Shown here in pieces: positions 1,991 to 10,252 of a stretch of 10,345 bases of DNA (position 1 is the first letter of the stretch; each line of letters begins with the position of its first letter). The notes under the pieces were generated by a model that was given only the letters and a program-made list of their open reading frames with translations, did not search any database and was not told the DNA's origin. Source of the stretch: Thermococcus sp. (lineage in GTDB: Archaea; Methanobacteriota_B; Thermococci; Thermococcales; Thermococcaceae); NCBI GenBank assembly GCA_027065835.1, contig JAMONK010000132.1, positions 1 through 10,345 of the forward strand. The letters are read 5' to 3'. A program made the position numbers and the translations under genes.

Positions 1991-1996
1991 TTTTTT
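1991..1996 (+). terminator. T-run, possible transcription terminator of the hydrogenase operon
   Basis: Six T residues follow an A/T-rich stretch (TATAAAA), 27 bases after the stop of the nucleotidyltransferase-like gene and before the next promoter. Archaeal RNA polymerase often terminates at oligo-T tracts without a strong hairpin. Six Ts is modest, so termination may be partial and read-through into the antiporter operon is possible. Confidence 0.4.
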
Positions 1997-2013
1997 CGAA
2001 AATCTCCGCAAGA

Positions 2014-2023
2014 TTTAAAAATA
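2014..2023 (+). promoter_or_regulatory. Archaeal TATA box for the antiporter/mobA operon
   Basis: TTTAAAAATA, preceded by a purine-containing CGCAAGA (2007-2013) that could act as the BRE. Archaeal transcription usually starts about 25-27 bases downstream of the TATA centre, which puts the start near 2042-2046. The leader would then be about 40 bases, with GGAGGGAG at 2073-2080 as the ribosome binding site for ATG 2085. This is the only clear intergenic promoter in the window and would drive all genes from 2085 to 10252. A second A/T-rich element (ATTATAAAA at 1982-1990) could also act as a TATA box. Confidence 0.65.
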
Positions 2024-2038
2024 GTGGTGACCAGAGTT

Positions 2039-2071
2039 TTAGGGCATTCTAAATGATTCAGACTGCCCTAA
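2039..2071. promoter_or_regulatory. 33-bp near-perfect palindrome at the predicted transcription start (candidate operator or leader hairpin)
   Basis: The outer arms TTAGGGCA (2039-2046) and TGCCCTAA (2064-2071) are perfect 8-bp complements. Symmetry continues inward with TCT/AGA and AAT/ATT around a centre at 2055. In all, 14 of 16 symmetric base pairs match; only 2051/2059 and 2047/2063 fail. It lies just downstream of the TATA box and spans the predicted start site. This is where archaeal repressors typically bind to block polymerase recruitment or escape. As RNA, a hairpin with an 8-bp stem, one mismatch and 3 further pairs would sit just before the ribosome binding site. No known regulator motif was recognised; it does not fit the SurR consensus GTTnnnAACnnnnnGTT. 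Confidence 0.6.
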
Positions 2072-2084
2072 TGGAGGGAGAGGG

Positions 2085-3554
2085 ATGGTGGGTGCACTCG
2101 CAGCTCTGACCTTTATGATTCCCCTGCTCGCGGGCCTGGTTCTCTTTAAACTCGACGGGAGACGGGCGGATACTCTGATGATGGGTTCCCTCCTCACGGC
2201 AATGGTGAGCCAGCTGGTGCTGGATTACGTGTACCTCACCTCCGGTGGGGGGCTCGTTCATATCGTTTACCTGGAAACCCGAAGCTTTGGGGAGGCGTAC
2301 GGCATAATAATCGACCCTATGAGCGTTCTAATCGGCAGCGTTGTGGCGGTTGCGGGCTTCATATTCATGTTCTACGGCGTCGAGTACATGAGCGAGAGGA
2401 ACGTCGGCCATCCTGTGAGGAAAGGTAAGGGCCTCTTCTACGCATGGATGACGCTCTTCGAGGGGGCAACTCTTGGGTTCATATACTCCTCAACGTTCCT
2501 TGGTCTGCTCATCTTCTTCGAGCTGATGGGCTTAGCCTGCTGGGGTGTCGTCAGCTATTACAACACGGGGGAGGCAAGGCGGGCCGGCTTCAAGGCCTTC
2601 ATAATCCCGAACGTGGGGGCCATGGTGGGTTTTTACACCGCGATAGGTGTTGGAATAACCCAGCTCCACGATCTCAGCCTGTTCTCGCTCTCCAGGGTTT
2701 CCCCCGACGTCAAGCCCTGGCTCTTCCTCGCCCTGCTCATAGCCGGCTACACCAAGAGCGCCCAGTTCCCCACATACTCGTGGATTCCGGACGCGATGGA
2801 GGCCCCTACCCCCGCTTCGGCGTTCCTCCACGGCGCGGCGATGGTCGAGATGGGCGTTTACCTCGTCGCGAGGGTCATCCAGTTCATCGGACCCCTGCCC
2901 CTCTGGATCTTCTACCTCATGGCGGTTATGGTCTCCCTTACACTGCTCATTCCCATGCTGAACTACCCCCTCCAGAACGACGCGAAGAGGCTGTTGGCCT
3001 ATTCTACCGTTGCAGAGGCGGGGATAATGTTCGTTGGTCTCACCTTTGCCTCCCTCGGTCTGCGCATCGGCCTCCAGGCGGCCATGTTTCAGCTCACGGC
3101 TCACGCGTTCGTCAAGGGGTTGGGGTTCCTCACCGCCGGGAGTTTTACCTACTCCCTTGGAACCCTTGACCTCAGGAGGATAGGTGGTCTTCAGGAGGGC
3201 ATGCCCGTGAGCGGGTTCTCCTGGGCCGTTGCACTCCTTGGTCTGGCGGGTCTTCCTCCAATGGGGATAGCGTTCAGTAAGGCGGAATTGCTCGCGGCCG
3301 TCGGTGAGGCGGGGTTGCATCCCCTGGCCTGGCTTCCGATGCTTCTGGTACTGGCGGATTCAGTCGTCTTCCTCTGGGTGGGTACTAAGTGGATAGGCCG
3401 CAACATCTTCGGGAGGAGGGGTTCTCCGGCGGTGAGTGCTGGAACCCACCCGGTGATCGCGGCGTCCCTCGTCACTCTGGTGGTCCTCACCCTGATCTCG
3501 GCTTACCTCGCGTATCCACTGGTCAAGATGATAGGCTTTTACGGGGGTGTTTGA
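2085..3554 (+). CDS. Antiporter-like membrane subunit (NuoL/M/N, MrpA/D, HyfB family), apparently complete channel
   Basis: A 489-residue, strongly hydrophobic protein with about 14 membrane helices, of the proton-translocating antiporter-like family. All key polar residues of a working half-channel pair appear present: E146 in FFELMGL, K224 in GYTKSAQFP followed by SWIPDAMEAPTPASAFLHG with H249, K301 in DAKRLLAYST, H340 and K344 in TAHAFVKG, and K399 in FSKAELL. It probably moves H+ (or Na+) across the cytoplasmic membrane, driven by the hydrogenase. ATG 2085 has GGAGGGAG at 2073-2080. It is the first gene of the operon under the TATA promoter at 2014 and is followed directly by a second, larger homologue. 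With no separate full-length MrpA here, it or its neighbour may supply the MrpA N-terminal function. Confidence 0.92.
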   Translation: MVGALAALTFMIPLLAGLVLFKLDGRRADTLMMGSLLTAMVSQLVLDYVYLTSGGGLVHIVYLETRSFGEAYGIIIDPMSVLIGSVVAVAGFIFMFYGVEYMSERNVGHPVRKGKGLFYAWMTLFEGATLGFIYSSTFLGLLIFFELMGLACWGVVSYYNTGEARRAGFKAFIIPNVGAMVGFYTAIGVGITQLHDLSLFSLSRVSPDVKPWLFLALLIAGYTKSAQFPTYSWIPDAMEAPTPASAFLHGAAMVEMGVYLVARVIQFIGPLPLWIFYLMAVMVSLTLLIPMLNYPLQNDAKRLLAYSTVAEAGIMFVGLTFASLGLRIGLQAAMFQLTAHAFVKGLGFLTAGSFTYSLGTLDLRRIGGLQEGMPVSGFSWAVALLGLAGLPPMGIAFSKAELLAAVGEAGLHPLAWLPMLLVLADSVVFLWVGTKWIGRNIFGRRGSPAVSAGTHPVIAASLVTLVVLTLISAYLAYPLVKMIGFYGGV

Positions 3555-8094: not shown

Positions 8095-9674
8095 TGGGGG
8101 TGGTAGGCATGCAGTTTGGAGTGATCCCCGTTGTCCCACTGACGTTCGCTTTTTTCCTTCCCATAACGGCGATCCTGGCCGGTAGAAGGAGGTGGGTTAT
8201 CAACGCCTACGTCCTCGCGGCGACGAGTCTTGTGATGCTGTTCGCTGCGTTTCTTGCGGTTGAGGCTTACCACTCCGGACGGCCCCTGGTCTATTCTTTC
8301 GGTGGCTGGATAGCGCCCGTTGGGATAGTGTTCGAGGTTGACAGGTTCTCGGCACTCCTCGTTCTCACGACCACCGTGGGGTTCTTCCTGGCCGCGATCT
8401 ACGCGGTCGATTACCTTTCCCGCGAGCATGGGGTCGAGTACTTCTTCACCGGGGTGCTGGGACTTGAGGCCGGCGTCCTGGGGGCCTTTATGACGGGCGA
8501 CGCGTTCAATCTCTTCGTGATGCTGGAGGTCATGGGCGCCTCCGCGTACTCCATCGTCGGCTTCTACCGTCACCGGGGCCAGTCCGTTGAGGGTGCCTTC
8601 AAGTACGCCCTAAGCGGGGCCCTGGCCACCAGCCTCTACTTCCTCGGCCTGGGCTTCGTCTACTCCTCCCTTGGAACCCTCAACATGGCCGATATCAGCG
8701 CTCAATTCCATGGCGTAGCCTTCCCCCTGACGGTGGGGGTCTTTGGGGATCCTAAACTCGCCGTGGGGATTTTCTTTGCCCTCACCGTGGCAATGGTTCT
8801 CGTTAAGAGTGCCGTCTTTCCAGGCCACTACTGGCTCCCGGACGCGTACGAGGGGGCACCCGTTCCGGCCGCGGCACTGCTGAGCGGCTTTGTGGAGGTT
8901 GTTGGGATATACATGCTCGCGCGCTACCTCTTCACGGTCTTCGCGGGCCCACCTTACTCCAGGGACCTCTCGCTGGTCTTCTTCACGCTTGGGACCGTGA
9001 GCTCGTTCCTTGGAGCGTTCATGATGCTCGTCCAGCGGAACCTCAAACGGCTTATAGCGTATTCGACGATACTCCACATGGGCTACCTCTTCATGGCGCT
9101 TGGGGTTATGAGCAAGCTCGCGCTGGTGGCCGTAACCTACCACATCATAAACCACGCGATAGCGAAGACCCTCCTCTTCTTCGCCGCCGGCTCCTACATC
9201 TTCGCCACCGGAACGGCCGATATAGATGAGCTCGCCGGTGTCGGAAGAAGCATGCCGCTCACGACGGCTGCATTCGCCGTGGCCACCCTGTCGCTGGTTG
9301 GCGTCCCTCCCCTGAACGTCTTCTTCAGCAAGATGCTCATCTTCGACGCCCTCCTCCAGGTGAGCCCGCTGATTGCCTCTGTGGTTGTGATCACCAGTGC
9401 GGTGGCGGCGTGGGCGTACTTCCGGGCCATGGTCACCATCTGGAGGGGAAGGGCTGGGGCCGGACATGGTACCGAGAATGAGGAGGGGCCGGTGGCCTAT
9501 CGTGAGCGGCCGGTATTTCTTCTGGTCATGCTGGTTCTGGTCCTTGCCGTGGTGTTCATCGGCCTGCTGTCCCCCCTACTGGTGGACCGCTTCGTCCTTC
9601 CGGCCGCGGGTCAGGCCATGAACTACGGCGGTTATATAAAGGCAGTTCTCGAACTTGCAAAGGGGGTGCTCTGA
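8094..9674 (+). CDS. mnhD: Na+/H+ antiporter subunit MnhD/MrpD
   Basis: Up to 526 residues with about 14 membrane helices, an ion-pumping subunit homologous to NuoM/NuoN and MbhH. Functional residues are E145 (VMLEVMG), K238 ([19 protein letters not shown]), K319 (LKRLIAYST), K358 (HAIAKTLLF) and K413 (FSKMLIF). The position that is His in many NuoL-type proteins is S264 (ALLSG), as is common in MrpD. Start choice is open: ATG 8094 shares a base with the mnhE stop (TGATG), but ATG 8109 has a better ribosome binding site (GGGGGTGGT at 8096-8104) and would shorten the protein by 5 residues. It is the third large antiporter-like subunit of the operon and is linked by TGATG to mobA. Confidence 0.94.
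9632..9640 (+). promoter_or_regulatory. Possible internal TATA box for mobA inside the mnhD 3' end
   Basis: TTATATAAA lies 33 bases before the mobA start codon, within the last codons of mnhD (encoding Gly-Tyr-Ile-Lys). At the usual archaeal spacing, transcription would start near 9663, leaving a leader of about 10 bases containing the AGGGGGTG ribosome binding site (9661-9668). The match may be chance, since mobA is also coupled to mnhD by TGATG. Confidence 0.3.
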
Positions 9675-10252
9675 TGCTGGGCGCGGTTCTGGCCGGGGGA
9701 AGGGCGAGGCGCTTCGGTGGGGACAAGCTCCTCTTCCGGGTCAACGGAAAGCCGCTTATCCTGCACACACTTGAGGCCCTCAAGCGGACTGAATCCATCG
9801 ATGAGGTCGTTCTGGTGGTCTCCCCGGATAATGCGGTGAGGTTTGAGTCCCTTGGCCATCGCGTTGTCGTGGACGACCTGCTCGTAGGTCCAATGAGCGG
9901 CGTCTACACCGCCCTGCGCCTCGGTGACGCCTTCGTCGTCGCCGGCGATATGCCCCTTCTCGTTCCGGAGTTCGTTGATTTTCTCATCTCCAGGTTCAGA
10001 GAGCGCGGAAAAATTGCCTGCGTGCCGCGTTGGAACAACGGCTACCTCGAACCCCTCCACGCGGCCTATTCCCGGAGCTTCATGGAGATTCTCGATGAGA
10101 AGATAAGGACAGGGAACTATGCCCTGAATCGGGCGATTCGCGAGGCAGCCCCCTGCTACGTTCCCGTAGAGCCCCTGCCGGAGGAGTGGAGGGGAAGCTT
10201 CTTCAACGTGAACACGAAGGAGGACTTGAAGAGGATTAAGAACCTTCCGTAG
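9674..10252 (+). CDS. mobA: Molybdenum cofactor guanylyltransferase MobA
   Basis: 192 residues, cytoplasmic, single nucleotidyltransferase domain with a Rossmann-like fold. It transfers GMP from GTP to Mo- or W-molybdopterin to make the guanine dinucleotide cofactor used by formate dehydrogenases and related enzymes. Motifs in order: [13 protein letters not shown] (6-18, GTP binding), GPMSGV (72-77), AGDMPLL (90-96, with the metal-binding Asp), EPLHAAY (126-132) and NVNTKEDL (178-185). Length fits the family (about 190-200). ATG 9674 overlaps the mnhD stop (TGATG) and has AGGGGGTG 5 bases upstream. Its place at the end of a hydrogenase/antiporter operon suggests the cluster's electron donor is a Mo/W-bis-PGD formate dehydrogenase encoded upstream. 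The 3' end overlaps a convergent gene. Confidence 0.93.

Follow-up and report, generated by a model that had tools for sequence, protein, structure and literature searches.

Two inverted, weak DtxR-type operators predicted over the expected transcription start of a Thermococcus antiporter operon

The window, a 10,345-nt stretch of Thermococcus sp. DNA that makes up the whole of contig G000:C132 (G000 being the window's own genome, 75% complete), carries a hydrogenase part and an antiporter part, between which two small conserved genes (1156-1482 and 1503-1964) gave no Pfam match at E 0.001. The antiporter (mnh) run opens on the plus strand at 2085..3554 with an antiporter/hydrogenase-4 subunit D type membrane protein, whose reading frame contains a Proton_antipo_M domain and scores above the cut-off of the NCBIfam hydrogenase 4 subunit D model, and its last gene is mobA (9674..10252, plus strand; NCBIfam MobA, above its cut-off). 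The leader, also read on the plus strand, holds a TATA-like box, TTTAAAAA, at 2014..2021, directly preceded as in other mnh leaders by a conserved element, TTTCG-N8-CGCAA (1994..2011), and a Shine-Dalgarno-like sequence, GGAGGGAG, at 2073..2080. Between the TATA-like box and the ATG at 2085 sits an imperfect 33-bp palindrome, TTAGGGCATTCTAAATGATTCAGACTGCCCTAA (2039..2071). According to the available text of PMC5316973, T. onnurineus promoters place the TATA box between -30 and -20, with a pyrimidine at -1 and a purine at +1; by this spacing, transcription would be expected to start at about A2041 on the plus strand, possibly a few bases off, inside the left arm of the palindrome.

The near-perfect 33-bp palindrome described by an earlier note on this DNA is real. 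Centred on base 2055, it matches at 14 of 16 pairs, including perfect outer arms of 8 bp, and the next-best symmetry centre anywhere in the window reaches 11 of 16 pairs. Across 3000 dinucleotide shuffles of the leader (120 bp) the maximum was 13 pairs and 14 was never attained, and 20 shuffles of the whole window gave a best symmetry of 13. A single instance of the exact arm-N17-arm pattern occurs in the 75%-complete genome to which the window belongs, and with at most one mismatch the long palindrome was found only there and in the nearest relative, G022, among the 61 genomes of the genus comparison set (the window's own and 60 others). At up to two mismatches these 61 genomes showed no enrichment (28 hits versus 42 control hits), and the long palindrome was rejected as a recurrent motif. 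G000:C55 and G022:C34 hold another near-copy, placed where an unrelated ORF begins next to a divergent one. G022 keeps 31 of the 33 palindrome bases but 12 of the 16 pairs, two pairs having been lost; the window and G022 differ at 2 of the 33 palindrome bases, at 5 of the preceding 54 and at none of the following 13, differences too few to show selection on the palindrome. The long symmetry might be functionless, with one of two regulator boxes or neither bound and the rest a product of chance or decay. Its restriction to two close genomes, the two pairs missing from G022 and a conservation that does not single out the palindrome fit this explanation, but a symmetry unmatched in 3000 leader shuffles argues against it, and we hold it to be rather improbable.

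The symmetry could instead act in RNA, the earlier note having offered a leader hairpin controlling translation as an option. The first 33 bases can indeed pair (-13 kcal/mol if the whole left arm is transcribed); however, the expected start falls inside that arm, the stem stops short of the Shine-Dalgarno-like sequence, the leader folded no better than its shuffles (z of -1.07, -0.19 and +0.45; +0.16 in G022), and the long palindrome was absent from the 26 other Thermococcus mnh leaders compared. A structured RNA leader was rejected on the four folds and the missing palindromes, leaving the hairpin option unsupported and, in our estimate, very unlikely.

Orthologous operons were gathered from searches of 101 genomes and of named contigs; identical leaders were removed before counting, and ten stretches were set apart (divergent antiporters, inner genes and a truncated locus). 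Protein identity was 94% for G022 and about 74-79% for the other 26 distinct leaders. In the orthologue alignment proposed by the earlier note, the literal 8-bp arms were unconserved beyond the nearest relative, but a TTAG...CCTAA core was retained. All 26 other leaders carried TTAG-N5-CC(T/G)AAT(G/A) between the TATA box and the start codon, a constancy partly built in by a search pattern that fixes TTAG, CC and AAT; two tests repeated the comparison without that pattern. The best site of an 18-box iron profile fell at -34 to -45 in 26 of 26 leaders, and the majority mnh form TTAGANNNNCCTAA, which was chosen after the orthologues had been seen, scored at least 9 of 10 in the same 26, as against none of 10 stretches taken from in front of divergent or internal antiporter genes. 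Every one of these orthologous promoters carries a box of this kind. Base 5 of the mnh sites is A, C or T, never G as in iron-gene boxes, and one mnh pentamer is therefore mostly TCTAA. The window shares with these leaders the operon, the location after the TATA box and ahead of the start codon, and the TTAG...CCTAA core; other species have one copy of the element, nearer the TATA box, whereas the window has two, the distance from that box being greater by about 11 bp for the left half and by about 30 bp for the right. At one locus (L061 10330-10887, genome G053) mobA directly precedes the first antiporter gene, not standing at the run's end, and the box was not found there.

The search for TTAGNCNAACCTAATGG with one mismatch across the genus returned 44 hits versus 4 control hits, 25 of the 44 being mnh leaders by position. 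Seven of the 19 non-mnh matches were read: one lay before feoA, one before a ZIP transporter and two before FeMo-co-type proteins, and the other three preceded, or lay close to, a helicase or regulators. The matches at feoA, ZIP and FeMo-co-type genes pointed to the DtxR/IdeR box, whose forms are given in the available text of PMC8464063 as the 19-bp TTAGGTTAGSCTAACCTAA and the 14-bp TTAGGNNNNCCTAA. Across the 61 genomes TTAGGNTANCCTAA gave 98 hits versus 2 control hits and was present in 50 of them; with one mismatch it gave 17 versus 2 in G000 and G022 together, and matches to the box with up to two mismatches were common by chance (29 versus 16 control hits in G000, 62 versus 44 in G022). 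Loci were read for 30 of the 98 sites and Pfam was run on selected downstream genes. Those just downstream of boxes included FeoA, Zip, a NUBPL iron-transfer NTPase, a ferredoxin-bearing ATPase, Nitro_FeMo-Co and radical SAM proteins, and further names were an ABC ATPase, a TIM-barrel protein and a KaiC-type ATPase; some boxes precede genes without an evident iron link. Where the context was read, these other boxes likewise lay between TATA and start codon.

The DtxR-family domain PF02742 was detected in 57 of the 61 genomes, G022 included; in the genome of the window, which is 75% complete, no dtxR gene turned up. The G022 protein combines PF01325 and PF02742, has MntR as its closest match among solved structures and scores below the cut-offs of both the NCBIfam MntR and DtxR models. 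A box with one mismatch lies at the start of its gene (L142 around 1932-1945), which suggests autoregulation. The Thermococcales homologues TK0107 and PF0851, of the same protein family, have been suggested to control iron acquisition, and PF0851 is said to regulate its own expression (PMC12827226, PMC6316755), as the G022 dtxR box would predict; the available passages of these two sources name no antiporter target and give no box sequence. Among literature titles and abstract openings, with Zhu et al. 2013 on P. furiosus iron regulation outside the coverage, no DtxR-type site was reported before a Thermococcus antiporter operon.

Both halves of the palindrome resemble this box: they are TTAG-N6-CTAA-like 14-mers in which the outer pentamer is a perfect CCTAA and the inner one is altered (TCTAA on the left, TCTGA on the right). 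The proposed left half-operator (2039..2052), which reads TTAGAATGCCCTAA on the minus strand and TTAGGGCATTCTAA on the plus strand, is a DtxR-type 14-mer containing a CCTAA and a TCTAA pentamer and agrees with TTAGANNNNCCTAA at all ten positions, a match equalled by 7 of 20000 leader shuffles; the proposed right half-operator, TCAGACTGCCCTAA (2058..2071, plus strand), is the weaker 14-mer and has one mismatch to the same form. Extended by TGG, the right half (TCAGACTGCCCTAATGG) is the window's top match to a profile of the other mnh sites (15.05, the next site scoring 8.21), a score equalled by 2 of 5000 leader shuffles and, across 20 kb of G022, by a coding-region site at 15.13. Because the right half fits the mnh profile and the left half fits TTAGANNNNCCTAA, the 33-mer may be viewed as two putative inverted copies of an element present once in other species.

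With the 18-box profile, whose boxes were picked by hand from non-mnh sites seen earlier and are not a random sample, the left half ranked first in the whole window (13.81), followed by a coding-region site at 8742 (10.64) and the right half (8.32). One of the 18, the box TTAGACTAACCTAA of a G029 gene outside mnh, is identical to an mnh site. It was excluded from a 9-box profile built from G000 and G022 only, with which the ranking was unchanged and the lead smaller (13.56, 12.06 and 9.2). All nine own-lineage boxes score 18.0-20.8 on that profile, against 13.56 for the left half and 12.06 for the site at 8742. The left half matches 9 of the 10 fixed bases of TTAGGNNNNCCTAA, having TCTAA for CCTAA, and the right half 7 of 10, both below the own-lineage boxes by profile. 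The available text of PMC8464063 reports that IdeR affinity did not change significantly when every repeat had TCTAA instead of CCTAA (about 70 versus 45 nM), and that one IdeR dimer bound to the lone 14-bp site upstream of complex I. The DtxR/IdeR box described there shares with the window inverted CCTAA pentamer pairs with N4 between them. In its 19-bp form, however, the 14-mers overlap with a 5-bp shift, unlike those of the window, which stand end to end and inverted, 19 bp from centre to centre, each with one altered pentamer. The left half begins 25 bp from the first base of the TATA-like box and the expected start falls inside it, a core-promoter or start-site position of the kind associated with DtxR/IdeR-type operators. 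Our best reading is accordingly of two inverted, weak, predicted DtxR-type operators over the predicted transcription start, an assignment for which position and orthology count for more than the sequence by itself.

The main rival to this reading is a separate, antiporter-specific regulator that owns TTAGnCnAACC(T/G)AATGG, the window being a lineage-specific double version and the likeness to iron boxes incidental or ancestral. The mnh element does have constants of its own, namely the lack of G at base 5 and a downstream AACC(T/G)AAT, partly built in by the pattern. The mnh leaders also share a second element: TTTCG-N(7-9)-CGnAA lies just upstream of TATA in 24 of 28, including leaders of 22 other genomes, and TTTCG-N8-CGnAA is almost confined to mnh (19 of 23 genus hits, with 1 control hit), with no common theme found at the four non-mnh loci. 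We know of no regulator for this element. Its recurrence upstream of TATA shows that mnh promoters hold one or more further signals besides the box. Against ownership by an mnh-specific protein, the mnh-element search with one mismatch also finds feoA, ZIP and FeMo-co-type genes, and the mnh sites score well on the iron-box profile. We judge such a regulator unlikely, though it deserves more weight than the other alternatives.

The earlier note had suggested that the palindrome is a site for a dimeric or tetrameric repressor acting over the start, possibly an uncharacterised regulator of hydrogen/formate metabolism. An operator for a dimeric repressor is the reading best supported here. The hydrogen/formate assignment is not favoured: the element also stands at mnh operons whose fetched upstream DNA lacks fdh-mfh, and a kindred box precedes iron and Fe-S genes. 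For five boxed mnh operons (L053-L057), the upstream DNA fetched, 7 to 16 kb, contained no fdh-mfh genes, two other loci (L058 and L060) reaching the contig end too early to be judged, and a formate-specific regulator of the mnh element is unlikely because of these five. Three particular proteins, a TetR-type protein encoded before fdhA, EnfR and SurR, can be weighed as owners. The TetR-type gene does precede fdhA in G022 and G054, and TGAC-N6-GTCA occurs before DUF302, the TetR-type gene and fdhA in G022 (L050 4421, 4929 and 5665) and at matching places in G054 (L052 3459, 3638 and 4363); these sites are likely the regulon of the TetR-type protein next to formate dehydrogenase, but none of the 28 mnh leaders contains TGAC-N6-GTCA, and the protein was rejected as owner. 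SurR was rejected likewise, GTTn3AAC being absent from all 28 leaders, in agreement with the mismatch to the SurR consensus that had been noted before. EnfR, of the Tfx family, binds a 36-bp pseudo-palindrome at the T. onnurineus codh promoter and also shifted the TON_1582 promoter, according to the available text of PMC10570040. That codh site resembles the window's in being a long pseudo-palindrome opening an antiporter-containing hydrogenase cluster, but its sequence differs when compared by eye. TON_1582-1589 lie near the Mch and Mbh hydrogenases and mnh2 is TON_1574-1580, as far as PMC4791640 and PMC8965080 describe them, which puts the antiporter target of EnfR outside mnh2; EnfR was rejected for that reason. 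Taken as one alternative, a formate/hydrogen regulator of any of these three kinds is the least probable of those weighed.

The palindrome is thus best regarded as a paired operator that probably serves a DtxR/MDR1-type metal-dependent repressor, with the mnh run repressed when metal is plentiful. Metal-loaded dimers of a DtxR-type protein would bind each 14-mer half, cover the expected start at about 2041 together with the first transcribed bases and keep RNA polymerase out. The antiporter-mobA run would then be repressed, rather than activated, at plentiful Fe2+ or Mn2+ and released when these are scarce, which suggests that metal supply may help to set the level of the antiporter ion pump. 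The single ancestral box may have given way in the window's lineage to two inverted, individually weak boxes, which could take two dimers side by side, perhaps cooperatively. More tentatively, and with somewhat less than even confidence, we propose that mnh antiporter operons across Thermococcus belong to a DtxR-type metal regulon, within which the inverted weak pair of the window's lineage would accept two dimers and make a sharper switch.

If this proposal is true, ion-gradient energy conservation would be tied to iron or manganese supply across Thermococcus, and one DtxR-type protein would link the Na+/H+ antiporters of the genus, including those of formate-hydrogenlyase clusters, to metal supply. 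Complex I is related to Mrp antiporters. Metal control of the Thermococcus antiporters would parallel that of complex I in Saccharopolyspora, reported as an IdeR target in the available text of PMC8464063.

The box search also yields a list of predicted iron and Fe-S targets in the genus. Two arrangements among the boxes stand out as observations in their own right. In each of the two close genomes a DtxR-type box (L161 1497 and L164 1501) lies ahead of a TIM-barrel gene resembling xylose isomerase, which is unexpected in an iron regulon. Three genomes carry paired DtxR-type boxes with a spacing of about 100 to 116 bp (L143 246-365, L144 1892-2011 and L145 1008-1137) between divergent FeoA-like and KaiC-type ATPase genes, one box of each pair being near the 19-bp form.
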